NCBI GenBank assembly: GCA_902789505.1
Contig: CADAOO010000007.1
Location: forward strand, 1 to 64,000
Source of the DNA: an uncultured Methanobrevibacter sp.
GTDB lineage: Archaea > Methanobacteriota > Methanobacteria > Methanobacteriales > Methanobacteriaceae
DNA length: 64,000 bases
Reading direction: 5' to 3'
Part shown: positions 10,607 through 45,519 of the stretch, in pieces
Position numbering within the stretch: position 1 is the first letter of the stretch
Layout of the letters: each line of letters begins with the position of its first letter
The notes under the pieces: model-generated
The model's database searches: none
Told to the model about the DNA's origin: nothing
The model's input: only the letters and a program-made list of their open reading frames with translations
Made by a program: the position numbers and the translations under genes

Positions 10607-12088
10607 TCAATCAGATTCAAATATTTTACTATAAAATTTTTTTATTTCTTTATAATTTCGCCTAAAATCTTTATTAGGTAATTTTTCAGTTATTGGTAAT
10701 TCTGTAAAAGATGTTAAATCAAAATAAATATCTTGATTTAATAATCTAAGAATTATCCGGTTTATAAAAGTCCTATAAATATCCGTAGTATAAACCATTT
10801 TTAATCTTGTTTCTATTGGCATGACATGACCATGAGCTGAAATATTTCTATGCCCTCTAGCCTTTTTTTCTGCCCTTCCTTGCTCTAAACCTATTTCATC
10901 TAAAAATTTCTTAACTTTTTGATAACCTGTAATTTCATAAGATTTTTTAATATTCTCATATACATCTAGATAACATTTTAATTTATCTTTAATAATTGGT
11001 AATTCATCATTCATTAATTCGCAGTATTTTTCTTCTTTAATCAATTCACCATTAGAACATGTTTTTGATGAATTAAACCACATTTCTGCTAATTCATCTA
11101 AACAACCTCCAATCATGATAATTTCAGATTCTGTTGGAAAACCAGTTGAGACATATAAATATTCTAAAATATGAGATAAATTTAATTCTGTTTCATTTAA
11201 ATATGCATTAATAATTTTACTTAATTGATTTTCAAAATAAAATTCATCTATGAAATCTCCATAAAATGAGATTGCAGGAACTTCATATGATGAACACAAC
11301 CTTTTAATATCAATTTTAGGAGAAATATTTGGTAAAAATGAAATTTCTTTTAAAATATTGTTATTCTCATCATAATAAGTTTCCCCTATTTTGATTAAAT
11401 TTTTTCCCAAAGAAAACGAAAGAATTTCTTTTATTTTCTGTCGTATTTCTGAAGAAGGAATATTAAATTGATTTTGATACTCAATACATAAATTATTTGA
11501 CCACTTTGGTCCGAAATCATTAACCTTTTCTAATACAAATTTACAGTTATCTAACTGTATTAACGAATGATTGTAAGAAACTCCATTCACTGATTCTATA
11601 ATTTCATAATTATCTTTTTCAAATTCATGTACTTTAAATGGAAAATCATTAAAATAAAGAGTTCTTCGAGCAAACATTACTGATTCAGACGGACCATTTA
11701 AATACCATTCTTTTACTTTACTTAATGAATCGAAATCTTTATTTTTATATTCCCTTTCAATATTATAAACTTTAAATTGTAAAAATTGATGAAAACCTAC
11801 TCCATTTTCCACAGAAATACGTTGTTTATTGAAAACACAGAAATTTGCAGTAATTTTTTCATCATTATTTTCAAAAACAAAATAAATTACATCATATTTA
11901 ACATTTAATTCCTTAGAATTTATCACAAAACTTCCTTCAACATCCAAGATTAGATCATATTTTTCATTTCTTTTAATAATACAAGAACTAACACCAGTTA
12001 AATCAATATTGCTACTTATTTCATAATCCTTAATTAATTCAATATCTTCTTGAATAAACTCCCATTCTATTTTTGATAAACTTCCCAT
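10607..12088 (-). CDS. ApeA-like HEPN protein, 493 aa
   Basis: The C-terminal domain has GHRNISAHGH, a perfect RxxxxH HEPN ribonuclease motif (Arg about 414, His about 419), embedded in helices as in ApeA-type anti-phage HEPN proteins. The N-terminal 250 residues are beta-rich and unassigned, again like ApeA N-terminal domains. I place the start at 12088 (MGSLSKIEWEF) because GGTGATGTT precedes it; an upstream in-frame ATG at 12103 lacks such a site. It follows the STAND gene at 12184 by 95 bp on the same strand. If active, it would cleave RNA when triggered by infection (inference from the family). Confidence 0.55.
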   Translation of the reverse strand: MGSLSKIEWEFIQEDIELIKDYEISSNIDLTGVSSCIIKRNEKYDLILDVEGSFVINSKELNVKYDVIYFVFENNDEKITANFCVFNKQRISVENGVGFHQFLQFKVYNIEREYKNKDFDSLSKVKEWYLNGPSESVMFARRTLYFNDFPFKVHEFEKDNYEIIESVNGVSYNHSLIQLDNCKFVLEKVNDFGPKWSNNLCIEYQNQFNIPSSEIRQKIKEILSFSLGKNLIKIGETYYDENNNILKEISFLPNISPKIDIKRLCSSYEVPAISFYGDFIDEFYFENQLSKIINAYLNETELNLSHILEYLYVSTGFPTESEIIMIGGCLDELAEMWFNSSKTCSNGELIKEEKYCELMNDELPIIKDKLKCYLDVYENIKKSYEITGYQKVKKFLDEIGLEQGRAEKKARGHRNISAHGHVMPIETRLKMVYTTDIYRTFINRIILRLLNQDIYFDLTSFTELPITEKLPNKDFRRNYKEIKKFYSKIFESD

Positions 12089-33353: not shown

Positions 33354-34494
33354 TCATGAGCCCTCACCAACTTTGTTTATGATACCTAAAAGTTCTTTTT
33401 TCAAACCTCGCATTTCCTCAAGTTCACCTCTCATATCACCCACTTCAGATTTTAATGCTTCATTTTCTTTTTCCATCTGAATAAACTGAGGTGATTTGAC
33501 AGACAGCTTTTCAACATCAGTGTTTATGGTAACAGCAGCAAGTGTTGTATATATTCATATTTCAAATCATCAGGATTTGTCATGAAGTATGCTGCATCGG
33601 TTTTGTTTTTGGCCTTTCCCTGCAAGTCATTGACCTTATCTATGCTCATGCCGTCATTATATAATGCTGAAGCATGAAACTTCCTGAGCATGTGGCTTCG
33701 AAACCTGCGGTATCGTCCAACTCTTCCAAGACCTAAAGTGTCATTGATCATCTCAAATGACTGGACCATATATGTCCTGCTGATTTGAAAGAGCGGACTT
33801 TCATCAGTTATTGGCTTATCCCTCAGCAACAGATATGCATTGATGGCCTTAACAGCTTCAGGACTGCAGTATGTAAGATAATACTTGTTTGTCTTTTTCC
33901 TCAGGATACTGAAGGTCGGAACAACGTCATCGACATCCTGCAGATAATCAATAACCTCAAATATGTCCATTCTATGTCTTGGCAGATATTCGGACAATGC
34001 CTCAATGTAATCTCCGATTGTCAGGCTCAGTGTCTCTGTTCTGGCACATCCGCTGGAGCAGGAAAACAGTATGATGGCTTTCATCAGGGGAGAAGCTATT
34101 TGAAAAGCCTCCCTTATCACTTCCTTATCCGGCAAGTCCTTAAAGTATATCGGAGCAGGTTTCTGGATGTTTTTGTCATTGACTTTAGGCAAATCCAATA
34201 CTTCTATGTCATAGAACTTGTAAAAAAAGATGATGCAGTTCATTTCCTTTCTTACGGTCCCGGCAGCATAGTTTTGAAACATGTAATGCCTATATTCGAT
34301 CAGTTTTGATTTCAAGCGGCTGCGCTTCCATTTCACACAGTTCATCTCATCCTCTTCGGCTTCCCAAGAAGTTCCTTAAGAGACATGTCAAAATAGTTGC
34401 AGTACTTTCTCAAAGAAAGCTCATAGCTCTGTGTTGTCCCAATTGCATGGTTACAGCTTATTGTGAAATTTTTGAATAGCTCGTCATTCATCAT
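33354..34494 (-). pseudogene. Tyrosine recombinase/integrase with two frameshifts
   Basis: Three frames join into one integrase. The N-terminal core-binding part (34494-about 34350: ELFKNFTISCNHAIGTTQSYEL) ends at a TGA that overlaps the ATG of the main frame. The main part (33524-34345) has the catalytic Arg in SSGCARTETLSL and HMLRKFHASAL (HxxR). The tail continues after a second shift near 33540 as LAAVTINTDVEKLSVKSP and a coiled coil (KENEALKSEVGDMRGELEEM) ending at 33354. The whole resembles site-specific integrases common in Methanobrevibacter genomes. As written it is inactive, unless the ATGA overlap is a genuine split. It borders the 37-bp repeat array. Confidence 0.75.
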
Positions 34495-34654
34495 ATTAAC
34501 CACTTTTATTTCTCAATTATTAAAAACCTTGTGAGAGAGCGCTTGAAAAGTAATAAGTATCTGAACTTTTGAAAGTTCGTATAAAACTGAATGATGTTGC
34601 AAAGTTAAATTTTGGAATATTAATTAAATTCATGGTTATCAGGTCTCATTTTTG

Positions 34655-35594: not shown

Positions 35595-35631
35595 GTTTTA
35601 AATATTCTACTCACAAACATTTATTCCGAAC
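35595..35631 (+). repeat. 37-bp cassette repeat R1
   Basis: First and most divergent copy (three substitutions: ATTCTAC, CTCAC, AAACATTT), ending in ATTCCGAAC. Left flank: the 3' gene fragment at 35428-35589. Confidence 0.9.
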
Positions 35632-35672
35632 CTTAAAATGAATCTGATTTTAAAAAAAACATATTAGGCTTA

Positions 35673-36575
35673 TTAATTCTTCATTAAACTTAATATTTGT
35701 TCTTTTTCATATTTAATCTCATCTTTTGGAAAATTAGGATATCTCTCCAAATATTCATCATATAATTTTATTGATTCATTAAATTTTCCCATAATTCCCA
35801 ATGCTTTTCCATAATATATATAATACATTTTTATCAGACTGTAGTTGTCGAAATAAATTTCAGAAATGATTTTAAAGCCTTCTTGTGATTCTTTGAATTT
35901 CCCAAGATTCGCCAATGACAAATATTTAGTTAATAATAACATTATATCATTTGGATTTTCAGCAAGAGCACAATTAATATACTTATCTGCATTTTCATAA
36001 TCTTTTTTATTTTTATAAATATTAGATGCCTGTAATAAAATAGAAGTATTATTTGGCTCTATTTTTAATGCTTTATTAATATAATTTAATGATTTCCCAT
36101 AATTCTTTAAATCATTATATATAAGACTGATATTTAATAAAGCTTCAGTATTTTTTGAATCAATTTTTAAAATCTTATTAAAATATTCAAACGCCAAATT
36201 ATATTCTTTTAAAAACATGTATGAAAAACCTATTAAATTTAACGAAGCAACATGTTTTTGATTGAATGTTAAAACTTTTTTAAAAATATTAATGGCAAGA
36301 TTATACTCTTCTAATTGAATACATGCAACACCTTTGTTATAATAACCATAATGATAATTAGGAGAATAAGTAAAAACTCTATCAAAACATTTAAATGAAT
36401 TATTTTTATCAAAAAGATAAGCGTAGTATAAACCTTTTAGTGATAATGCTTCAATATTTTTCTTATTAATAAGTAACACTTTATTAATTGATTCAATAGC
36501 TTTATTATATGAATTATTATGACTATACTCTATTTATTTATCTAAATAATAATTAATAATTTTATTTTTAAACAT
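35673..36575 (-). pseudogene. TPR protein with an in-frame stop after 13 codons
   Basis: ATG 36575 follows an excellent TTGAGGTG site and opens MFKNKIINYYLDK, then a TAA at 36534-36536. The same frame continues as IEYSHNNSYNKAIESINKVL and from a GTG at 36479 runs 268 residues to 35673. That part has at least six TPR units (GYYNKGVACIQLEEYNLAI, ALLNISLIYNDLKNYGKSL and others). TPR arrays mediate protein-protein contacts. The single nonsense codon means either a recent pseudogene or re-initiation at the GTG. Confidence 0.65.
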
Positions 36576-36583
36576 CACCTCAA

Positions 36584-36988
36584 TCACCCTCCAGTAGAAT
36601 TATCCTTTGAAAGTTCAAAAAGAAAAATATTTATTAAAAATTCAATTAAATCAATTGTTCCAACATATGTATTAAGTGCAAATAACTCTAATAAATGAGC
36701 TTTTACAAATTGAAAACCGTTGCCTAATCTTTTAGCATCATTATAATCATCATACAGTTCTCTAACATATTTACCAACTTCCCTATGAGGATTATAAGAT
36801 TCCGTACCATTTGAATCATCACCCTGAATTGGACCCAATTTTGTTTGAAATTCTCTTTGAATCAAATAATTATTTATATGATTATTAATTGAATTTTTAT
36901 CATAATTTGGATTTTTAGGGTCACGATTTTTTTTAAATTCTGATATAATATAATCCTGTAAAGTTTTAAATATTTTACTCACAAACAT
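36584..36988 (-). CDS. Hypothetical protein whose start lies inside repeat R2, 134 aa
   Basis: The only ATG is within the repeat, so the first nine residues (MFVSKIFKT) are repeat-encoded and there is no ribosome binding site upstream. The rest (LQDYIISEFKKNRD..., ESYNPHREVGKYVRELYDDY) is acidic with a hydrophobic C-terminal helix near 115-128. It reads like the C-terminal part of a larger protein joined to the repeat. It lies 9 bp before the TPR gene start, so the two form one unit. No family is recognised. Confidence 0.5.
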   Translation of the reverse strand: MFVSKIFKTLQDYIISEFKKNRDPKNPNYDKNSINNHINNYLIQREFQTKLGPIQGDDSNGTESYNPHREVGKYVRELYDDYNDAKRLGNGFQFVKAHLLELFALNTYVGTIDLIEFLINIFLFELSKDNSTGG

Positions 36989-36999
36989 TTATTTCAAAC
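36963..36999 (+). repeat. 37-bp cassette repeat R2
   Basis: Copy of the ATTTCAAAC class with CTCAC instead of CTCGC. The stub 36975-37010 ends within it and the gene 36584-36988 begins within it. Confidence 0.95.
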
Positions 37000-37010
37000 T
37001 CAGTTGGCAT
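36975..37010 (-). pseudogene. 5' gene stub ending in repeat R2
   Basis: ATG 37010, 7 nt after GAGG, opens MPTEFEINVCE and stops at a TAA supplied by the repeat. The good ribosome binding site and abrupt stop suggest the beginning of a once longer gene cut by the repeat. Confidence 0.4.
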
Positions 37011-37019
37011 AATTATTCC

Positions 37020-37403
37020 TCATTTAGTTTTAGTCACAATATCAAAATCCACATCAAGATATTCTTTAGCTAAATCTTTAATTTTTTGATTATATCTTAA
37101 TGTAATTTTTTCACGTTCCCAAATGTCTTTAGCATTTACAGATTTACATTGCCTTTCTTGAATTAAAGCATGATATTCTTTTTCATAATTTTCAACATCA
37201 TAACCTTTAGCAATGAAATTTTCACGTTTATTTTTTTCTATATTTTCAGCTTCTTGTTGCGAATATTCTTTATCAAAATATTTTTGACCATCATAAATTG
37301 AAGATAATAAGAATGATCCTTTGAAATTAAAAATACTTGTCATCCAACCTACTCCCAATATCAGTTTTAAATATTTTACTCGCAAATATTTATTCCGAAC
37401 CAT
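37020..37403 (-). CDS. Hypothetical protein downstream of repeat R3, 107-127 aa
   Basis: The frame runs out of the repeat (repeat-encoded MVRNKYLRVKYLK). A more likely start is the ATG at 37343 (MTSIFNFKGSFLLSSIYDG), giving 107 aa. It is lysine/glutamate-rich with a helical middle (EAENIEKNKRENFIAKGYDVENY). No family is recognised. Single gene between repeats R2 and R3. Confidence 0.5.
   Translation of the reverse strand: MVRNKYLRVKYLKLILGVGWMTSIFNFKGSFLLSSIYDGQKYFDKEYSQQEAENIEKNKRENFIAKGYDVENYEKEYHALIQERQCKSVNAKDIWEREKITLRYNQKIKDLAKEYLDVDFDIVTKTK
37364..37400 (+). repeat. 37-bp cassette repeat R3
   Basis: Canonical ATTCCGAAC-class copy, identical over 37 bp to R4, R5, R6 and R13. Confidence 0.97.
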
Positions 37404-37451
37404 AACCCATTTATATATTGCCCAATTTAGTTAGTGTGTATAAATACACAC

Positions 37452-37961
37452 TCAAACAAGATACGCCAAATAACAAGCTAACAAAGTATTAGGATACTTG
37501 TCATACGCTTCTTGCATTCCATCAAAATTAGGTAATTCAATCGAAGAATCATCTTTAATACTCCTATCTCCAGAATATTCTCTTCTTTTTTTAGCAAACC
37601 CTTCAGAGGGTAATCTAACATATAATAAATCCACAAAACTAATGAACTCATTATTGTTCTTCATATCCTGGTAATCATCAAAAGATTCTTTGGCAATGAT
37701 TCCTTCAAATTCAGGATGCACATCTAACCATTCAATAAGAAGACTATTATAAGCTTTGATTTCATCATCACAAAAATTACATTTCTGACGTACTAACTCA
37801 TTCATATTTTGAATGGTATTTAATAAATTTTTAGATCTTAAAAATTCATCCCTCTCATGCTGCCTATCATATGGAACAAATGAAACAGGCACATAATCCT
37901 CAAGCTCAACTAACTCATCAATATGCTCTCTAATAAAAAAATTATCTACCATTAACAACAT
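37452..37961 (-). CDS. Hypothetical acidic protein, 169 aa
   Basis: Second gene of the unit between R3 and R4. It is acidic and helical, with CNFCDDE near 81, a WLDVHPEFEGIIA segment and a hydrophobic end (NTLLACYLAYLV). The helix with xYPxFxxII-like ending recurs in other cassette proteins (KKYPEHKDLI, EKYPQFKPMI), suggesting related folds. The start ATG 37961 follows TGAGGTGAT. Function unknown; immunity protein is a possibility by context only. Confidence 0.6.
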   Translation of the reverse strand: MLLMVDNFFIREHIDELVELEDYVPVSFVPYDRQHERDEFLRSKNLLNTIQNMNELVRQKCNFCDDEIKAYNSLLIEWLDVHPEFEGIIAKESFDDYQDMKNNNEFISFVDLLYVRLPSEGFAKKRREYSGDRSIKDDSSIELPNFDGMQEAYDKYPNTLLACYLAYLV

Positions 37962-38072
37962 AAAACATCACCTCAGATTATACTTTTCATTATACACTGT
38001 AAGGAATAAAATTAAGAAAAAAACCGGAAAAATCAAAAATTGTAAAAAAAATGACTAACATTATTCTCAAAG

Positions 38073-38477
38073 TTATGCACAAGATTGATAAATAGTTAAA
38101 AAACGAGAGTAATCCTTATCATATTTCTCTCTTTCTTCTTTTGAAAACCCATCATAATAATCATCAAAATCCTCTTTAATAATTTCTTTTAAAAACTTTA
38201 AAAAAGAGGGTTTATCATTTATCAATCCCCAATAATTATTTTCTTGAAGAAAATTTAAAAGATCAATAGAAATATATATGGAGGACATTCTGGATCTAAA
38301 TTCCATTTTTTCTTGACCATATCTATCTCTTAAAGATTCATCAAAACTTTCTCGAATTTCATCAAATGTTAAAAAACTTCTGATAGATTCTGGAATAAAT
38401 TGTTTAGAAGAAATAATATCCAGTTTAATTTCATTGAAATATTCTTGATTAATAAAATCAGTAATCCTCATAATCAT
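38073..38477 (-). CDS. Hypothetical protein, first gene after repeat R4, 132-134 aa
   Basis: Starts 14 bp from repeat R4. Met3 (MRITDFINQEYF) is as likely as Met1. The protein is strongly charged and helical (FLKEIIKEDFDDYYDGFSKEEREKYDKDY). No family is recognised. Followed at 111 bp by the 37961-37452 gene. Confidence 0.6.
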   Translation of the reverse strand: MIMRITDFINQEYFNEIKLDIISSKQFIPESIRSFLTFDEIRESFDESLRDRYGQEKMEFRSRMSSIYISIDLLNFLQENNYWGLINDKPSFLKFLKEIIKEDFDDYYDGFSKEEREKYDKDYSRFLTIYQSCA

Positions 38478-38490
38478 TCATCCCACAAAA

Positions 38491-38527
38491 GTTTTAAATA
38501 TTTTACTCGCAAATATTTATTCCGAAC
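38491..38527 (+). repeat. 37-bp cassette repeat R4
   Basis: Canonical copy, 14 bp upstream of the gene at 38073-38477. Confidence 0.97.
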
Positions 38528-38587
38528 TAAATATACTCGGAGTAATAATGACCGCAATATCCTTACTACTCCAAATAAAAGACAGAA

Positions 38588-38610
38588 AGAGGGATTGAAA
38601 AAATCCCTCT
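38588..38610. terminator. Hairpin, probable terminator
   Basis: AGAGGGATT (38588-38596) pairs perfectly with AATCCCTCT (38602-38610) across a 5-nt loop. It sits in the non-coding gap between R4 and the plus-strand small genes. Confidence 0.5.
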
Positions 38611-38684
38611 CTACAATTTAAAATTATATAATTTTTTTTATTTAAATTTTTACATAAAACAAACAAAAAAGAGGTAAACAAAAA

Positions 38685-38828
38685 ATGTTAAACATAATAC
38701 AAATAACAAACCTAACATTACTAATAATACTAGCAATATTATTATACAAAAACCATGAAAACAAACTAATAATAGCACTATTCATAATATGCATAATTAT
38801 ATTTATTTGTGGGATAATAATCCCATAA
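38685..38828 (+). CDS. Small membrane protein, 47 aa
   Basis: ATG 38685 follows AAGAGGTAAAC. The product is almost entirely hydrophobic with two likely transmembrane helices (NLTLLIILAILLY and LIIALFIICIIIFICG) separated by KNHENK. This plus-strand gene is opposite to the cassette genes and precedes the RHH gene copy. Small two-helix proteins of this kind are common in archaeal viruses and plasmids; the role is unknown. Confidence 0.5.
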   Translation: MLNIIQITNLTLLIILAILLYKNHENKLIIALFIICIIIFICGIIIP

Positions 38829-38942
38829 AATATTTTTTTTATTAAAAAAAAGGATGTGAACTAAAAATGAGCGAATACACAAGCATAAAAATAACCAAAG
38901 AACTAAACGAAAAAATGCAACTAATCAAAAAACAAAACAACT
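38816..38942 (+). repeat. Duplicated block, copy 1 (RHH gene 5' region)
   Basis: About 127 bp nearly identical to 41375-41503, from AATAATCCCATAAAAT to AAACAAAACAACT, differing mainly in homopolymer lengths. Contains the start and N-terminus of a ribbon-helix-helix-like protein. Confidence 0.9.
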
Positions 38943-39129
38943 AGAACAACCAATATTCTATGTAGGCACTGAACCAATAACATGGACAACACTTAAAGAC
39001 GCGCAAACTGGTGATAAATGGAGTCAAGGAAACAATACAGTAACAGTACTATTCAAAGATAATCAAGGAGCATTATTAAGATTCGAAAAATTAGATGAAA
39101 TAAGAGTAGAATACTATCATTTCATATAA
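38867..39129 (+). pseudogene. Ribbon-helix-helix-like protein, frameshifted
   Basis: ATG 38867 gives MSEYTSIKITKELNEKM and stops at TAG 38942-38944. One frame over, coding continues from 38941 as EQPIFYVGTEPITWTTL to TAA 39127-39129. The N-terminus (TSIKITKELNEKMQLI) resembles the DNA-binding strand and helix of RHH proteins, often antitoxins or small repressors. The intact protein would be about 87 aa. The 3' end overlaps the converging gene 39117-39425. Confidence 0.5.
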
Positions 39130-39425
39130 TTTTTTTCTAATTTTATTAATTTAAATTTCATATCTTCAACTCTACTCTCATCATCACTTTCAGCAATGCC
39201 TTTCTTTAGTATCCTCATTTCATTTTCCATGTCATTTAATTCATGGTATATTTCAGCCAAAGATATATAAGATGCTGAATAATCAACTTTACTTTCAACA
39301 TTCATTTTATGTAATTCAATTGCTTTCTCTATATCACCATATTTCCTTTGATATTCCGCTTCATTATACCTATCTGCACAATCATGAAGTTCACAAATAA
39401 ATTTAGCTAGTTCTTCTGAGTTCAA
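39117..39425 (-). CDS. TPR-like small protein, 102 aa
   Basis: Helical protein with a TPR-like pair of helices (YNEAEYQRKYGDIEKAIELHK and ASYISLAEIYHELNDMENEM). It follows the coiled-coil gene 39438-39719 by 12 bp, so these two form the unit between repeat R5 and the plus-strand genes. Partner unknown. Confidence 0.6.
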   Translation of the reverse strand: MNSEELAKFICELHDCADRYNEAEYQRKYGDIEKAIELHKMNVESKVDYSASYISLAEIYHELNDMENEMRILKKGIAESDDESRVEDMKFKLIKLEKNYMK

Positions 39426-39437
39426 AATAACCCTTCC

Positions 39438-39719
39438 TTAAATAATATTATCCCATTTTGGTCTATTCTCTTCCAAAGCACGTAAACGTTCCTCAAAACT
39501 ACTATACTCATCCAACTTAGACTCCAACTCCTTATTCTTATTCTCCAATTCATTAAGTTTAATTTCCATCTCTTTACGAATTTCACTAGTATACACTTTT
39601 GCCTCAACATTTTCTAAACTTAAATCAGGTAATGCTGCCAAATATACTTCTTTAACATCTTCAATTGCAATATGAATATAAGATGGATCAGTTTTAACAG
39701 GCGGAACATGACCTTCCAT
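39438..39719 (-). CDS. Coiled-coil protein, paralogue of 41838-42080, 93 aa
   Basis: After MEGHVPPVKTDPSYIHI the sequence is nearly the same as the gene at 41838-42080 (EAKVYTSEIRKEME, KNKELESKLDEY, SFEERLRALEENRP). Heptads from about residue 48 to 85 predict a coiled coil, typical of short oligomerisation tails. This copy has a proper start; the paralogue is cut at its 5' end by repeat R9. It could be a C-terminal module once fused to something larger. Confidence 0.6.
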   Translation of the reverse strand: MEGHVPPVKTDPSYIHIAIEDVKEVYLAALPDLSLENVEAKVYTSEIRKEMEIKLNELENKNKELESKLDEYSSFEERLRALEENRPKWDNII

Positions 39720-39782
39720 AAGTGTGCAGAGTCTTAAGTTACCGCAGTTTTTAGCAATTGTTGTCTGGAAAAATTTTCGTAA

Positions 39783-39819
39783 GTTTTAAATATTTTACTC
39801 GCAAATATTTATTCCGAAC
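39783..39819 (+). repeat. 37-bp cassette repeat R5
   Basis: Canonical copy, 64 bp upstream of the coiled-coil gene. The stub 39795-39854 ends inside it. Confidence 0.97.
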
Positions 39820-39854
39820 TTTATTAATTGTTGAACTGTTTGAGGAGGAGTCAT
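39795..39854 (-). pseudogene. 5' gene stub ending in repeat R5
   Basis: ATG 39854 overlaps the stop of the upstream gene (ATGA), a real translational-coupling arrangement. It reads MTPPQTVQQLIKFGINICE and stops at the repeat's TAA. The N-terminus resembles the stub at 42556-42666 (MTKTQTVQHLLNQF). Confidence 0.45.
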
Positions 39855-40270
39855 AGTTGTGCCTCTTCTGAGATTATAAGATCTTTGTGTTCAGGATATT
39901 TTTTTACAATATCTAAAGCTAATCTGATATCGTCCTCCTGCATTTCAGAAATAGTTCTTGAAACGTCTCGATCAAACAATTCCATCCACATATAAATGCC
40001 ATGTTCTTTTTTTAGATTGAATTTTCTCTTACCTTCCCAATCTTCAAAAATCCTTTTACTCATTGCAGCATTTATTTCAGATAACCTAATCATTTGATGA
40101 GGAATTACAACATCTCTTAATTGAATTAACTCTTCAAGATGATCCATCAAATAATCTAAATTAACAAAATACTTACCTACTAATGACTTTTCATATTTTT
40201 CAAATAAAACCCCATCCAAGGTATATTCAAATTCAATTCCAGTAAACATTTCACTTTTCATTATAATCAC
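39851..40270 (-). CDS. Hypothetical protein, 136-139 aa
   Basis: Single complete gene between R5 and R6, coupled at its 3' end to the stub above. It contains WMELFDRDVSRTISEMQEDD and the terminal helix LALDIVKKYPEHKDLIISEE, a motif shared in style with the 42701-43045 and 37452-37961 proteins. Met4 (MKSEMFTG) is an alternative start. No family is recognised; possibly an immunity-type protein. Confidence 0.55.
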   Translation of the reverse strand: MIIMKSEMFTGIEFEYTLDGVLFEKYEKSLVGKYFVNLDYLMDHLEELIQLRDVVIPHQMIRLSEINAAMSKRIFEDWEGKRKFNLKKEHGIYMWMELFDRDVSRTISEMQEDDIRLALDIVKKYPEHKDLIISEEAQL

Positions 40271-40394
40271 ACTATTGCACGTAAGATAACTTTATGTTCA
40301 TTTTTAGTATCAATTACTTTAATGATTTCACATTCAGTTCCGTCTTTTACAATGGTTTCCATTTGATTAATAAATTTATTTTTATATTTTTTAC

Positions 40395-40431
40395 GTTTTA
40401 AATATTTTACTCGCAAATATTTATTCCGAAC
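40395..40431 (+). repeat. 37-bp cassette repeat R6
   Basis: Canonical copy, 125 bp upstream of 39851-40270 and 9 bp downstream of the 40441-40701 stop codon. Confidence 0.97.
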
Positions 40432-40440
40432 CTCCTAGAA

Positions 40441-40701
40441 TTATAATGACATTAATATTGTACTAACTGCTCTAGATTGCAATAAAAAATCTTCAAAATA
40501 TGCTTCAGGATACTCTTTGTCACGGTCATAAGCTCCACATGTTGAACTATATAAATGTTTAAACATATCAGGTTCCCCCTCTAATAAATCTTTTAATTCT
40601 TTTTCAGTTTCCTTTTTTTCTACAGGATCCATTCCTTCAAATAATAATTCCATTACTTTTTCTTTGAACTCTTCATATGTCATCGGATATTTTTTAACCA
40701 T
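40441..40701 (-). CDS. YPMxYxE family small protein, copy 1, 86 aa
   Basis: Shares a pattern with the protein at 44505-44792: YPMTYEEFKEKVMELLFE versus YPMNYKEYEKRVIELFLE, then a Cys and YD motif (CGAYDRDKEYPE versus CFRYDHPE), then a similar hydrophobic tail ending (AVSTILMSL versus PVANLRMLIG). Acidic and helical. Start ATG 40701 lies 49 bp from R7. The family name is unknown to me; duplication within the array suggests a useful cassette. Confidence 0.6.
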   Translation of the reverse strand: MVKKYPMTYEEFKEKVMELLFEGMDPVEKKETEKELKDLLEGEPDMFKHLYSSTCGAYDRDKEYPEAYFEDFLLQSRAVSTILMSL

Positions 40702-40749
40702 GAGTTCACCTTATTAATTCGTGTGAATTGCAGATTTCTGATGTGTTCA

Positions 40750-40786
40750 GTTTTAAATATTTTACTCGCAAACATTTATTCCGAAC
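40750..40786 (+). repeat. 37-bp cassette repeat R7, hybrid
   Basis: Combines the AAACATTT core of the R8-R12 class with the ATTCCGAAC end of the R3-R6 class, and lies exactly between the two groups in the array. Confidence 0.97.
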
Positions 40787-40813
40787 CTATATCAACAAAA
40801 ATTAAGAATAAAC

Positions 40814-41290
40814 TTAACCTATCTCAATATCATCATCATTAACAAGATTTGGGTTAATATAATTAGGATTTTTTTCAATAACCTCAGAAATAATATTGTC
40901 TTCAGAATTAAATAAAATTAACCGCCTATATTTCGATTCAAGATTTCCCAGGTTAGGTTCTTGTTTATCTTTTGAATGCCAATATTCAATTTTTAAAGAA
41001 AATTCCTTCCCAAAATTAACAATTCTTTCTAACTCAAATTCTTTAGGTTTGCCTTCAAGTTTAAGTTTTCGATAATCTTTATATTTTAATTTATGAACAT
41101 TCTCCTCAATTTCATCATAAATCTTTATATTATCTTTCCAAATTACTTTTTGAACACAATCTGCAGAAATCCGAGAACTTGCATGGAATACATAACTTTT
41201 TTTCCCTTCATACTCAAAAGGCCTTACATAATTTAATTCAATAATATAATTCTCAGGTAACCTAAATTTATCATCGTAACTTACATACAT
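40814..41290 (-). CDS. Hypothetical protein, 158 aa
   Basis: Beta-rich protein with ENYIIELNYVRPFEYEGKKSY, LERIVNFGKEFSLKIEYWH and an acidic C-terminus (NPNLVNDDDIEIG). Single gene between R7 and R8, starting 48 bp from R8. No family is recognised. Confidence 0.6.
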   Translation of the reverse strand: MYVSYDDKFRLPENYIIELNYVRPFEYEGKKSYVFHASSRISADCVQKVIWKDNIKIYDEIEENVHKLKYKDYRKLKLEGKPKEFELERIVNFGKEFSLKIEYWHSKDKQEPNLGNLESKYRRLILFNSEDNIISEVIEKNPNYINPNLVNDDDIEIG

Positions 41291-41337
41291 ACTAACCTAT
41301 CTGCCAAATACTTTAGATAAATATTCCTCTTTTTTTG

Positions 41338-41374
41338 GTTTTAAATATTTTACTCGCAAACATTTATTTCAAAC
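41338..41374 (+). repeat. 37-bp cassette repeat R8
   Basis: ATTTCAAAC-class copy. Its last base at 41374 is directly followed by the duplicated RHH block (41375-41503), giving an exact junction. Confidence 0.97.
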
Positions 41375-41503
41375 AATAATCCCATAAAATATTTTTTTTT
41401 ATTAAAAAAAAAGGATGTGAACTAAAAATGAGCGAATACACAAGCATAAAAATAACCAAAGAACTAAACGAAAAAATGCAACTAATCAAAAAACAAAACA
41501 ACT
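41375..41503 (+). repeat. Duplicated block, copy 2 (RHH gene 5' region)
   Basis: Second copy of the 38816-38942 block, abutting repeat R8 on one side and the 3' end of gene 41518-41835 on the other. Confidence 0.9.
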
Positions 41504-41523
41504 CACTATTCTATGCATTATAA
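41428..41523 (+). pseudogene. Truncated ribbon-helix-helix-like gene, 31 aa
   Basis: Same N-terminus as 38867-39129 (MSEYTSIKITKELNEKM), then KKQNNSLFYAL and TAA at 41521-41523. SLFYAL replaces the PIFYVG of the longer copy, so the gene is cut shortly after. Its end overlaps the stop of the opposite gene 41518-41835. Confidence 0.5.
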
Positions 41524-41835
41524 TTCCGCATCTATAAACTTTTGAATTAAGATATTATCATTAGAATGAATCCCCAAATCTTTTACCATATCAAAAGATT
41601 TTTGAACCTCTGCCCAAACATTAACTTCTTCGACTTCAAATTTTACAGATTCTTTTAATAGTAAATATTCTTTTACAAATAAACATCCCACGTATAATAT
41701 ATTTCCAAAATTAAAAATTATTTTATCTGCATCTTTAGGGACATTCTCAAATAACACTCTTGCTTTCTCTTTACCTAAACAAGTATTATCCCATGGATCC
41801 CCAATATTAATTTTTATTTCATTCATAATTATCAT
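41518..41835 (-). CDS. STAS-like (DUF4325-type) protein, 102-105 aa
   Basis: The pattern KINIGDPWDNTCLGKEKARVLFE, KIIFNFGNILYVGCLFVKEYL resembles STAS-like DUF4325 domains, which have a short alpha/beta fold and occur beside ATPase-like partners. Resemblance is by eye only. It begins 2 bp after the coiled-coil gene, so the two are translated together. Met4 (MNEIKINIGD) is an alternative start. Confidence 0.45.
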   Translation of the reverse strand: MIIMNEIKINIGDPWDNTCLGKEKARVLFENVPKDADKIIFNFGNILYVGCLFVKEYLLLKESVKFEVEEVNVWAEVQKSFDMVKDLGIHSNDNILIQKFIDAEL

Positions 41836-41837
41836 CT

Positions 41838-42080
41838 CTATTCTCTAATTTTATCCCATGTTGGTCTATTTTCTTCTAAGGCACGTAAACGCTCCTCAAA
41901 ACTATTATATTCATCCAATTTAGATTCCAATTCTTTATTTTTATCCTCTAAAGCATTAATCTTAGCCTCCATTTCCTTACGAATCTCACTAGTATAAACC
42001 TTTGCTTCTGCATTCTCAAGACTCAAATCTTCGATAGCAGCCATATAAGCTTCTTTAACATCTTTTACATCATGTTTCAC
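41838..42080 (-). CDS. 5'-truncated coiled-coil paralogue at repeat R9, 80 aa
   Basis: Aligns with the gene at 39438-39719 from its residue 12 on, but its upstream part is replaced by repeat R9 10 bp away. The start is only a GTG (MKHDVKDVKEAYMAA). The coiled coil (KNKELESKLDEYNSFEERL) is intact. This is direct evidence that the repeat marks a recombination junction. Confidence 0.55.
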   Translation of the reverse strand: MKHDVKDVKEAYMAAIEDLSLENAEAKVYTSEIRKEMEAKINALEDKNKELESKLDEYNSFEERLRALEENRPTWDKIRE

Positions 42081-42089
42081 ATAAGATGA

Positions 42090-42126
42090 GTTTTAAATAT
42101 TTTACTCGCAAACATTTATTTCAAAC
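42090..42126 (+). repeat. 37-bp cassette repeat R9
   Basis: ATTTCAAAC-class copy, 10 bp from the truncated coiled-coil gene. Confidence 0.97.
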
Positions 42127-42143
42127 AAAAAAAATAAATTTTT

Positions 42144-42443
42144 TTAATCAAATAAAATTTCTGTGAATAATCTCCCATTTTCATCATAATAACAAGAACA
42201 TATACTGAGCCATAAAGTGTAATCCGGAACATCAGGATAAATCACTAAATTATGACCATCACTAGATTTAAAATGGAAAGTTTTAGTAAATTTATTATAA
42301 TCTAAACCACGACAAGTATCCCCAGATTCCACATATGCATCAACAAATTTATAATCTTTATTCCCTACATCTAAACTTAATAATCCTTGATTTAATTTTA
42401 AAGTTAAATTATTTTTTTTTAATATTTCTTTCAGAGTTACCAT
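42144..42443 (-). CDS. Hypothetical protein, 99 aa
   Basis: Small beta-rich protein (LKLNQGLLSLDVGNKDYKF, TFHFKSSDGHNLVIYPDVPDY) with two Cys in SICSCYY. Single complete gene between R9 and R10. No family is recognised. Confidence 0.6.
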   Translation of the reverse strand: MVTLKEILKKNNLTLKLNQGLLSLDVGNKDYKFVDAYVESGDTCRGLDYNKFTKTFHFKSSDGHNLVIYPDVPDYTLWLSICSCYYDENGRLFTEILFD

Positions 42444-42529
42444 AAAAAATCACATTGAATCAATTTCATTTTCTGAAATTCTTCTTTGATAATTTTTTTA
42501 TTCTTTCTTGATAATATTCATATCTATTT

Positions 42530-42566
42530 GTTTTAAATATTTTACTCGCAAACATTTATTTCAAAC
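42530..42566 (+). repeat. 37-bp cassette repeat R10
   Basis: ATTTCAAAC-class copy. The stub 42556-42666 ends in it at the repeat's TAA. In the other direction an open frame starting at the repeat ATG runs 29 codons (MFASKIFKTNRYEYYQERIK). Confidence 0.97.
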
Positions 42567-42666
42567 CAAAATCCCCTTCAATTTCAAGGTTTAAAACTTC
42601 AGAAGTTAAATTTAATTCTAAATCAAATTGATTCAATAAATGTTGTACAGTTTGAGTTTTAGTCAT
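42556..42666 (-). pseudogene. 5' gene stub ending in repeat R10, 36 aa
   Basis: ATG 42666 gives MTKTQTVQHLLNQFDLELN and ends EIEGDFGLK with a TAA formed by the repeat. It shares the MTxxQTVQxL start with the stub at 39795-39854. Probable N-terminal remnant of a longer cassette gene. Confidence 0.45.
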
Positions 42667-42700
42667 TATATTACCCCGTACATATAAAAAAAAGAGTAAA

Positions 42701-43045
42701 TTAAGGTTTTGCTATTTCAACACCTTTGATCATAGGTTTGAACTGAGGGTATTTTTCAAGAAAATCTAAGGCATATTGAGTATGGAAATCTAAAATATCT
42801 TCAATTGTATACTTAGGATTATTTCTCATTTTAAACACAATAGCTCTTTCTTCATGATCCATTTCTTCAAACTCAGGATGTTTAATAGTTGCATCAAATC
42901 TAATAACATTTACATCTGGAACAACTTTTCGTACAAAACGCATTAAATCATGAGGTAACCCATCCGGAGTGTTTATAAATTCCTTAAAAAAACCCCTCGG
43001 CATATTATTCAAAAAATCATAATCTGGAATCAAACATCTAATCAT
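42701..43045 (-). CDS. Hypothetical protein, 114 aa
   Basis: Helical acidic protein with HPEFEEMDHEERAIVFKM and a terminal ALDFLEKYPQFKPMIKG segment like those of the 39851-40270 protein. It starts 49 bp from R11; in-frame ATG 43045 (MIRCLIPDYD). No family is recognised. Confidence 0.6.
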   Translation of the reverse strand: MIRCLIPDYDFLNNMPRGFFKEFINTPDGLPHDLMRFVRKVVPDVNVIRFDATIKHPEFEEMDHEERAIVFKMRNNPKYTIEDILDFHTQYALDFLEKYPQFKPMIKGVEIAKP

Positions 43046-43093
43046 AATACACTACCTCATGATATATTTAATATAATATGTATTTAATCTACT

Positions 43094-43130
43094 GTTTTAA
43101 ATATTTTACTCGCAAACATTTATTTCAAAC
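43094..43130 (+). repeat. 37-bp cassette repeat R11
   Basis: ATTTCAAAC-class copy, 49 bp upstream of the 42701-43045 gene. Confidence 0.97.
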
Positions 43131-43147
43131 AAAAAAAGTTTTTTATG

Positions 43148-43177
43148 AGTAACCCCTCATTATTATGAGGAGTTACT
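43148..43177. terminator. Strong hairpin, probable terminator
   Basis: AGTAACCCCTCAT pairs with ATGAGGAGTTACT across a 4-nt loop with one mismatch. It is followed on the plus strand by A-rich sequence and preceded by a T run, so it is T-tailed on the minus strand. Confidence 0.55.
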
Positions 43178-43596
43178 AAAAAATTGTCTTTTTACACAAA
43201 AGGAGGTAAAAAAAGACTATGGTAATTGAGGTAGGAACAGTTTTACATCTTATTCCAGGATGAAAAAAAGTTAAAGTAGCGAAATGACTATAAATCACAA
43301 AATTGTATATGGAATGGTTTGAAAAACCACATACGCCAAGTACATTTCATTCTTATTAACACATTCTTACCAGAATTATCAGTGACAGTATACGTAGCTT
43401 CATATTTCAAAGGCAGTAATTGTTTTAAAACAAATTTAATTTTAGATAGCATAAGCTAACACTTCCACTTTTATTAAAAAAAACAAGTTTATAAAAATTA
43501 ATTTTCCCTCATCTTTATCCCATATCTATGTTAAGTTATGGGCTAAAATTTCATGATTTCTTTTTAATGTTTCATCATCATTAGGCAATCATCAAT
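43178..43596. other. Gene-poor spacer with remnant start
   Basis: The plus strand has a strong site AGGAGGTAAAAAAAG before ATG 43219, but the frame stops after 14 codons (MVIEVGTVLHLIPG). This looks like the start of a lost gene. Nothing else is supported. Confidence 0.4.
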
Positions 43597-44250
43597 TCAC
43601 CTTTTTTGAACATCAATAGCAAATCCTTTATCATTATAAATTATAATCTCAAGAGAAGAAATATATTTTATTGGTTCTTTTTTAGAGCTAGGAGATATGA
43701 TTAATTTATCATCAGTATACAATTGATCTTGGAATACCCAGGATTCAATTCCAGTATTTTCATCAACAATTTTTTCGTGGAATATAAATTTACCAATCAA
43801 TTTTAAATTTGCTTCAAACTTTTCAAATTGAAAATCAAACCCATTTTGTTTAAGGATTTCGTTAATGGATTTAGTGTTTTCTTCTTTTTCCTCTATGGCT
43901 GGGAGAAATGGTTGAAGTTTACTATATTTTTTGAGAATTTTTATCTTTTCTTTATTATTTTTAGCTTTTTTAGATTCTTCAACTAACTTTTCCCATTCTT
44001 CCCCTTCAAATGAAACATAAACTGGATCTTCATATTGATAAAAATCTTTTAGGTAACCATGATGCCGACACCAAAATTTAAATTGTTCATATAAATCAGA
44101 GTTATCTTCAATTAATTTTTTTTCATATTCTAACTTTTCAGAATATGATCTCATTTCAAATTGAGCTACTTTTTCTGAATTTCCCCACCCATATGCAAAA
44201 TTTCTATGAAATTTGGGTCTAAAACCATCATCCTCTGGTGGAATCCACAT
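43597..44250 (-). CDS. Hypothetical protein, 217 aa
   Basis: Largest intact cassette protein. N-terminus is Arg/Phe-rich (GFRPKFHRNFAYGWGNSEK), the middle helical and charged (EEWEKLVEESKKAKNNKEKIKI), the C-terminus beta-rich (ESWVFQDQLYTDD, SSLEIIIYNDKG). It starts 26 bp from R12. No family is recognised. Confidence 0.65.
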   Translation of the reverse strand: MWIPPEDDGFRPKFHRNFAYGWGNSEKVAQFEMRSYSEKLEYEKKLIEDNSDLYEQFKFWCRHHGYLKDFYQYEDPVYVSFEGEEWEKLVEESKKAKNNKEKIKILKKYSKLQPFLPAIEEKEENTKSINEILKQNGFDFQFEKFEANLKLIGKFIFHEKIVDENTGIESWVFQDQLYTDDKLIISPSSKKEPIKYISSLEIIIYNDKGFAIDVQKR

Positions 44251-44275
44251 AAATAATACCTCTAAAAACTAAATT

Positions 44276-44312
44276 GTTTTAAATATTTTACTCGCAAACA
44301 TTTATTTCAAAC
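44276..44312 (+). repeat. 37-bp cassette repeat R12
   Basis: ATTTCAAAC-class copy, 26 bp upstream of the gene at 43597-44250. The stub 44307-44423 ends at the repeat's TGA. Confidence 0.97.
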
Positions 44313-44423
44313 CACAATATCTTCAAATTCCTCTTGAGTATACTGTATTTCTGTATAGTAGATGGTTTCCATATGTTCCTCATATCCACTTGCAGATAAT
44401 TTATAAAAATAGATGTTAATCAC
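44307..44423 (-). pseudogene. 5' gene stub ending in repeat R12, 38 aa
   Basis: A GTG at 44423 after GAAG opens MINIYFYKLSASGYEEHM and continues YTQEEFEDIVV to a TGA made by the repeat edge. It is protein-like to its last residue and looks like the N-terminal third of a small protein cut at the repeat. Confidence 0.45.
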
Positions 44424-44504
44424 CTTCGTTGTTTACTTATTTCAATCCATTTTTTAAATTCATTGTATCGTTTAGGGTCTTTTTTTTTCTAATTCTTTTT
44501 CTAT

Positions 44505-44792
44505 TTATCCTATGAGCATTCTTAAGTTTGCAACTGGTGTTTGTTTTAATCGATTATCTTCGAATCTTTTTTTACAAGAATCTCCGAAAATTTCAGGATG
44601 GTCATAGCGGAAACAATCTTGCCCATAAAAACTTTCAATGTAATTTGGTTTATCAGATAACTCTGCTTCTACTCGTTCCATCATTAATTCTAATGTTTCA
44701 CCTTCATAATCTTCAAGAAATAACTCAATTACTCTTTTTTCATATTCTTTATAATTCATAGGATAATTCTCTTCATTAACCATAATTTTCAC
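44505..44792 (-). CDS. YPMxYxE family small protein, copy 2, 93-95 aa
   Basis: Paralogue of 40441-40701: YPMNYKEYEKRVIELFLE, CFRYDHPEIF, PVANLRMLIG. Acidic and helical. Start ATG 44792, or Met4 (MVNEENYPMNY). It lies 70 bp from R13, the last repeat, so it heads the array. Confidence 0.6.
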   Translation of the reverse strand: MKIMVNEENYPMNYKEYEKRVIELFLEDYEGETLELMMERVEAELSDKPNYIESFYGQDCFRYDHPEIFGDSCKKRFEDNRLKQTPVANLRMLIG

Positions 44793-44861
44793 TAACTCCT
44801 TTTATATATTATTGTCTCTTGTATCTTTTGCATCATCATAAGCATTGTTTCCCGTATTTGG

Positions 44862-44898
44862 GTTTTAAATATTTTACTCGCAAATATTTATTCCGAAC
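44862..44898 (+). repeat. 37-bp cassette repeat R13
   Basis: Last copy in the array, canonical ATTCCGAAC class, identical to R3-R6. Beyond it the repeat is not seen again. Confidence 0.97.
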
Positions 44899-45519
44899 AC
44901 TATATAAATTTCCTTTAATTAGTTGTTTGAAACATTTATATTTCTTCTTTTAAAAATGTTGTTAGGAGGTGATTTTTGCATAGCAAATATGATGGTGGTT
45001 TCCTCAAAATGTTGTGATTTGGCAGGCCATATGATGCTTATTTTTATGAATTTTGAGGAGATGATTTTGATGTTGTGAAAGGGTGCCAGGTTTCCTCAAA
45101 AAATTAATTATGTAAAACAATTCTTAATTTCAATTATATATAGCATTAGCATAATATTTTTAATTGGCACAAAAAAAAGAAAATGGTTCCAGAGTGGAGG
45201 GTTTTCCTCCACATTACTCATAATTATTTCATTAGTTTTTTAATTTTGCGTGTGTTTAATTTTAATAGCTATTTATATAAAAATTCTTGAATAATTACTT
45301 GATTTTAGCCTTTTGAACGAAATTGAAATTATTTAAAAAAATATGACCTCCATAAAAATAAGTAGAGAAAAACAAAAGTCTATGATATTAATATATTAAT
45401 AATTAGTGGCTTCATGAAAGAATTAAAAAAATCTATAGATATACCGATTTTTAATCTAAATGAATATTACTATCCCTAACCACATCAAACTTAAATATTT
45501 ATAAAAATAATATATTACC
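44899..45519. other. 621-bp gene-free boundary of the array
   Basis: No gene is supported. It contains short repeated strings (CCTCAAAAT at 45002 and its complement ATTTTGAGG at 45050) and isolated GGAGGTG-like sites without usable frames. The right part carries the promoter of the 45520 gene (TATA-like TTAAATATTTATAAAAA near 45490). Confidence 0.4.
45194..45212. terminator. Hairpin in the boundary spacer
   Basis: GTGGAGG and CCTCCAC form a perfect 7-bp stem with a GTTTT loop. The flanks have only modest T richness, so terminator function is tentative. Confidence 0.4.

Follow-up and report, generated by a model that had tools for sequence, protein, structure and literature searches.

Organization of the repeat array

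The window considered here is a stretch of 64,000 nucleotides from an uncultured Methanobrevibacter sp. (GenBank assembly GCA_902789505.1, contig CADAOO010000007.1), the draft genome of which amounts to 1.89 Mb in 109 contigs and is 84% complete. Between positions 35595 and 44898, 13 copies of a 37-bp repeat, all on the plus strand, alternate with gene-sized spacers of which the main open reading frames (ORFs) lie on the minus strand, and the array abuts a leader at its right end. An earlier note, made from the sequence alone, had described these copies, the strand of the genes and the grouping of the repeats, all of which are confirmed: R3–R6 and R13 are identical (class A), R8–R12 are identical to one another (class B), and R7 is a hybrid of both classes. 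R1 and R2 are diverged copies. The parts of the array, with percentages of amino acid identity for the relatives of the cassette genes, are as follows.

35595–35631, plus strand: repeat R1, leader-distal, diverged
35632–36962: spacer S1, 1331 bp, with a TPR protein gene (35673–36479, minus) and a small ORF (36584–36961, minus)
36963–36999, plus strand: repeat R2, diverged
37000–37363: spacer S2, 364 bp, with a gene open at the repeat edge (37020–37361, minus; 49% relative within the array of genome G002, L159)
37364–37400, plus strand: repeat R3, class A
37401–38490: spacer S3, 1090 bp, with genes 37452–37961 (minus; 54% relative in the L101 array) and 38073–38477 (minus; 74% relative in the L155 array)
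38491–38527, plus strand: repeat R4, class A
38528–39782: spacer S4, 1255 bp, with genes 39117–39425 and 39438–39782 (both minus) and a plus-strand gene fragment, homologue of an integrase-linked gene in proviruses
39783–39819, plus strand: repeat R5, class A
39820–40394: spacer S5, 575 bp, with gene 39851–40270 (minus)
40395–40431, plus strand: repeat R6, class A
40432–40749: spacer S6, 318 bp, with gene 40441–40701 (minus; matched in part by a relative in the L104 array and, at 79%, by one in a small-gene cluster on the chromosome of genome G013)
40750–40786, plus strand: repeat R7, hybrid of classes A and B
40787–41337: spacer S7, 551 bp, with gene 40814–41290 (minus; relatives in the L168 and L111 arrays)
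41338–41374, plus strand: repeat R8, class B
41375–42089: spacer S8, 715 bp, with genes 41518–41835 (minus) and 41838–42089 (minus, running into the repeat); its start lies inside an element that S4 has captured too (96% over 116 bp)
42090–42126, plus strand: repeat R9, class B
42127–42529: spacer S9, 403 bp, with gene 42144–42443 (minus)
42530–42566, plus strand: repeat R10, class B
42567–43093: spacer S10, 527 bp, with gene 42701–43045 (minus)
43094–43130, plus strand: repeat R11, class B
43131–44275: spacer S11, 1145 bp, with gene 43597–44250 (minus)
44276–44312, plus strand: repeat R12, class B
44313–44861: spacer S12, 549 bp, leader-proximal, with gene 44505–44792 (minus; a paralogue on contig C4 of this genome is 94% identical, and the L101 and L159 arrays contain relatives)
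44862–44898, plus strand: repeat R13, class A, leader-proximal
44899–45180: leader, about 280 bp, abutting R13, recognized by its conservation beside the first repeat in other genomes

Several of these spacers end inside genes. With an 18-mer and up to three mismatches, 14 matches can be found in the window, for 0.6 expected by chance; the fourteenth, at 10614, is a weak chance match. No Rfam match above the cut-off was obtained in the array region of the window or in the leader, and only a tRNA was found in two relatives.

Regarding the repeat itself, it begins with GTTT and ends with AAC; in between, an AT-rich arm and a second arm lie on either side of a 7-bp centre that varies between arrays. 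In the window, the core exhibits perfect 9-bp inverted arms around the 7-bp centre, namely TAAATATTT-TACTCGC-AAATATTTA. Four more copies are present in the same draft genome, one on contig C2 and three on contig C51 (L018, 10762–13839), the latter with genes in between, no leader and a transposase remnant inside. A search of other genomes of the genus, as suggested by the earlier note, indicates that the window repeat (up to three mismatches) is absent from 66 of them, and in the genus one commonly finds repeats that share its design but have another central core. Exact or near-exact repeats also occur away from the main array in genome G062, either single or paired 3.5–3.6 kb apart (L361–L365), and may have arisen by off-target insertion or as pieces displaced from an array. 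In genome G026, two arrays of the same repeat face in opposite directions at one locus (L150, 4496–16645). As R13 belongs to class A and its neighbours R8–R12 to class B, exchange between arrays of one genome is suggested.

The leader and its association with cas1-cas2

The window leader is 94% identical to the sequence adjoining the single C2 repeat on its right, and at least 16 other genomes of the genus contain related leaders that start right at a repeat. The leader is followed in 14 of them, 231–234 bp from the repeat start, by cas1 (331 amino acids) and then cas2 (91 amino acids), both pointing at the leader; the products match NCBIfam models TIGR00287 (5e-71) and TIGR01573 (3e-14), respectively. 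Orphan arrays having a leader but no adjacent cas1, as in the window, are also found in relatives (L114, L117, and L118), and at two loci (L103 and L104) the cas1 frame looks damaged near its start, with leader and repeats still present in both genomes. The leader carries conserved pairs of inverted TGAGGA/TCCTCA motifs (44963–45094 in the window), which could be binding sites or hairpins. Read towards the array, it also contains a conserved TATA-like element, ATATAAA, which suggests a promoter facing the array. The earlier note had held that the array does not belong with clustered regularly interspaced short palindromic repeats (CRISPR), since its gaps hold genes. Gene-bearing gaps are precisely the unusual feature of what is not an ordinary CRISPR array.

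The Cas1 proteins of the gene arrays have 4n06 as their closest solved relative (6e-60), and their counterparts of the known active-site residues (E163, H227, and E242) vary hardly or not at all. In a tree containing no casposase, 20 gene-array Cas1s form one clade (100/100) nested in the Cas1s of Methanobacteriaceae, a clade that also takes in L224, L225, and L230, whose array type could not be settled. Sister Cas1s from the same genus, 43–46% identical to the query, go with ordinary arrays having a 72–73-bp unit (L161–L165 and L167), and the two sister loci scanned contain the type III-A genes Csx1, Cas10, Csm3-5, and Cas6. Both kinds of Cas1 are held by five genomes (G004, G052, G062, G063, and G066). 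At Cas1 loci from other taxa outside the clade, the repeat arrays detected mostly have a 66–78-bp unit. While the control type III-A loci show effectors, no Cas effector was found among 109 ORFs of at least 160 amino acids within about 12 kb of 15 gene-array loci. A viral scan with Cas1 returned only short, distant matches.

Origin, polarity and turnover of the spacers

In 24 arrays, 82 spacers have a median length of 738 bp and range from 204 to 7033 bp. Five of them, in two species, copy the chromosomal DNA of their own genome at 98–100%. In G002, a one-contig genome, three spacers (499, 483, and 529 bp) are 99–100% copies of stretches of the same chromosome, i.e., an adhesin-like gene, a gene conserved across the genus and an acyltransferase region, and two leader-proximal spacers of G062 copy two chromosomal loci at 98–99%. 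All five source loci are still in place without a repeat, and the match stops at the spacer edges. As judged from these sequences, spacers enter the array by copying and not by the transfer of excised cassettes owning a site, because the sources persist elsewhere without a repeat. The flanks of the five sources show nothing consistent as a protospacer-adjacent motif, although five are too few to judge, and a source search for the short spacers of G042 matched only the array itself.

These sources bear on the integron-like cassette array proposed in the earlier note. Its account of captured genes separated by repeats, with turnover of whole units, is retained. The mechanism is nevertheless not integron-like, because the units have no recombination site of their own, their sources lacking the repeat and remaining in place, and because the enzyme genes linked in relatives are cas1-cas2 and not intI. 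An integron-like or pdif-like array moved by a tyrosine recombinase acting at the repeat could account for the perfect inverted core with its variable centre, and a candidate gene lies 1.1 kb from R1 (33524–34345 and 34342–34503). However, the frame of this gene is broken, its relatives (open frames of about 330–430 amino acids, up to 97% identical) occur in 59 of the 67 genomes of the genus, and none of 20 neighbourhoods of such relatives checked contains such an array; it is probably a mobile element in its own right. Inverted motifs are frequent in CRISPR repeats as well. With a leader that travels with cas1-cas2 and five source loci without a repeat, movement by a recombinase appears very unlikely.

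Arrays are also polarized. The farther a repeat lies from the leader, the more it has diverged (permutation p = 5e-5 without the window and 0.0024 with it, the mismatch counts of indel-bearing repeats having been set by hand). Gene-internal fragments make up 7 of 23 leader-proximal spacers versus 3 of 59 others (p = 0.004), and complete ORFs point away from the leader in a ratio of 64:27 (p = 1.3e-4), whereas the ratio for partial ORFs, 30:22, is not significant; these orientation and polarity p-values are approximate because the tests pool arrays of related species. Gene-internal spacers also decide the case of an ordinary multi-gene island with the repeat as its conserved promoter or regulatory site, a case named in the earlier note as one that would speak against cassettes. 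Although the repeats do precede minus-strand genes in the window, this explanation is contradicted because some spacers are internal gene fragments. Furthermore, spacers cut genes, relatives have genes in both directions between repeats, the repeats match exactly over all 37 bp and have cores specific to each array, and the copied source loci are without a repeat, so that a promoter role can be practically dismissed.

Regarding turnover of whole units, which the earlier note expected of a cassette system, it is observed between the related genomes G002 and G007, where conserved flanks enclose units differing in number and content. One viral locus has been captured in both, with different ends and in opposite direction. 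Likewise, between L114 and L118 the flanks are conserved and one spacer is different.

Cassette contents and candidate immunity genes

Numerous different contents can be found in the spacers. Viral genes are represented by those for the portal, the minor head protein and the head protease; adhesin domains and an ADP-ribosyltransferase domain also occur, as do one type IIG restriction enzyme and a large number of small unknown proteins. The 897-amino acid ORF in a 3.2-kb spacer of genome G048 (L110, 453–3660) is likely the type IIG restriction enzyme of the defence scan, and as such a captured defence gene. At least 9 of the 16 cassette proteins of the window, as well as the one on C2, have relatives inside the arrays of other species. 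Small acidic genes related to window cassettes also occur outside arrays, in chromosomal tandem clusters (L213, 7006–8906; L214, 8308–9824) that are possible source loci of cassettes.

In phages, small immunity ORFs are located directly downstream of MuF toxin genes (PMC5576092). The window gene in S10 (42701–43045) shares 48% amino acid identity with the gene that immediately follows a MuF-ADP-ribosyltransferase toxin gene in a G007 provirus, and the gene in S5 (39851–40270) shares 83% with a viral gene located just upstream of a head protease and a capsid gene (L359), the names protease and capsid being our own reading of the ORFs. Among the 57 ORFs in the region of the G007 provirus, spacer matches fall mainly on the toxin, the toxin's neighbour and an integrase-linked small gene. 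Two window genes are related to genes in the downstream immunity position of the MuF polymorphic toxin modules of temperate phages (PMC5576092) although, unlike in these modules, the array gene stands without a toxin. Viral scans with three other cassette proteins gave nothing useful.

It can be hypothesized instead that Cas1-Cas2 built the array as a relaxed adaptation module taking in random DNA, the captured genes having no selected role. The newest spacers are often host-gene fragments and spacer contents are mixed, as such a module would predict. This explanation is nonetheless considered unlikely, given that an orientation bias away from the leader is shown by complete ORFs and not by partial ones, that arrays of different species share small-protein families, and that matches to one provirus concentrate on the toxin-immunity pair and on one further gene family.

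A proposed gene-capture array derived from CRISPR adaptation

The preferred interpretation, to which a probability of about 0.8 is given, is that the window harbors an adaptation-only, CRISPR-derived array of the Cas1-Cas2 type that captures genes, probably immunity genes. At the level of sequence, its grounds are the leader, the repeat design, the association with cas1-cas2 in relatives and the gene-length spacers, together with the copied sources, the polarity, the orientation bias and the recurring families. According to the proposed mechanism, the Cas1-Cas2 integrase would take long double-stranded DNA, from about 0.2 to several kb, copied from the chromosome or from a virus or provirus, and would insert it between the leader and the first repeat with duplication of the 37-bp repeat. 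Complete genes readable from the leader side would be retained, while random fragments would tend to be lost. The retained set would be enriched for small genes resembling the immunity genes of viral MuF polymorphic toxins, and the array would serve as a bank of protein-coding immune memory. Cas1-Cas2 would thereby perform the integration of gene-length spacers, and the cassette products would protect the cell. A further-reaching proposal, which we favour only slightly over its negation, is that of a heritable adaptive memory in the form of protein-coding genes, in which Cas1-Cas2, without effectors or guide RNAs, would copy viral immunity genes and self DNA into a leader-driven array and so confer immunity to virus-borne toxins.

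Several points weigh against the gene-capture interpretation. No cas1 match was found in the incomplete draft genome of the window, where the integrase would have to be unassembled, lost or supplied in trans, and the window leader does not adjoin cas1-cas2. The integration of long DNA by Cas1-Cas2 is itself a deduction from sequence. R13 differs from R12 by three bases, where simple duplication of the leader-proximal repeat predicts none, and leaderless repeats are present at other sites, C51 among them. The immunity role is based on position and recurrence for a minority of the cassettes, and some spacers hold unrelated host genes. The hand-set mismatch counts and the pooling of related arrays mentioned above count on the same side.

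Comparison with known systems

In the way units enter, the gene array resembles CRISPR adaptation, and in its cargo, integrons and recombinase-associated acquired interbacterial defence (rAID), while meeting the full definition of none of them. The nearest adaptation module is that of type III-A CRISPR-Cas in the same archaea, with which it shares Cas1, Cas2, a conserved leader by the first repeat, direct repeats of 37 bp (24–47 bp being usual), polar growth, and spacers copied from existing DNA. The cas1-cas2 genes are at the locus in the 14 relatives with the same leader, and none was found in the window's own draft genome. Unlike CRISPR-Cas, gene arrays have gene-holding spacers of 204–7033 bp, neither short nor near-uniform, no nearby effector genes and no sign of short guide spacers. 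As in integrons, most captured genes are directed away from one fixed end; unlike in integrons, there is neither IntI with attI nor an attC-like recombination site for each unit, and the units are copies and not excised cassettes.

In Bacteroidales, rAID arrays consist of co-oriented short orphan immunity genes with conserved intergenic sequences, and how they acquire genes is stated as not yet clear (PMC12247911). The genes of the window array are co-oriented too, and an immunity role is suggested, by position, for two of them only. However, rAID arrays are headed by a tyrosine recombinase and target effectors of the type VI secretion system (PMC12247911), whereas the gene array is headed by a leader, with cas1-cas2 in relatives. 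Regarding casposons, these are Cas1-solo transposons, in which a Cas1 relative integrates kb-scale DNA (PMC4046053, PMC10359463). Unlike casposons, gene arrays have an adjacent Cas2, a Cas1 nested among CRISPR Cas1s (in the tree without casposase) and cargo without cas1.

The main text of the 2025 CRISPR classification (PMC12669027) contains neither "long spacer" nor Methanobrevibacter. No prior description of such arrays was found in the open-access literature searched; most subscription papers and preprints lie outside it, and priority is not certain.

Implications

The spacers for which CRISPR adaptation is known measure tens of bases and serve as guides. If the gene-capture interpretation is true, the arrays would represent a second use of the same integrase, in which a Cas1-Cas2 lineage handles gene-length DNA and keeps genes. 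Archaea would then possess a natural device for capturing genes, one that functionally links CRISPR, casposons and integrons. With regard to how immunity-gene arrays grow, a question still open for rAID, the gene arrays offer a testable answer and, as the system is found in gut methanogens, one that can be tested in culture.

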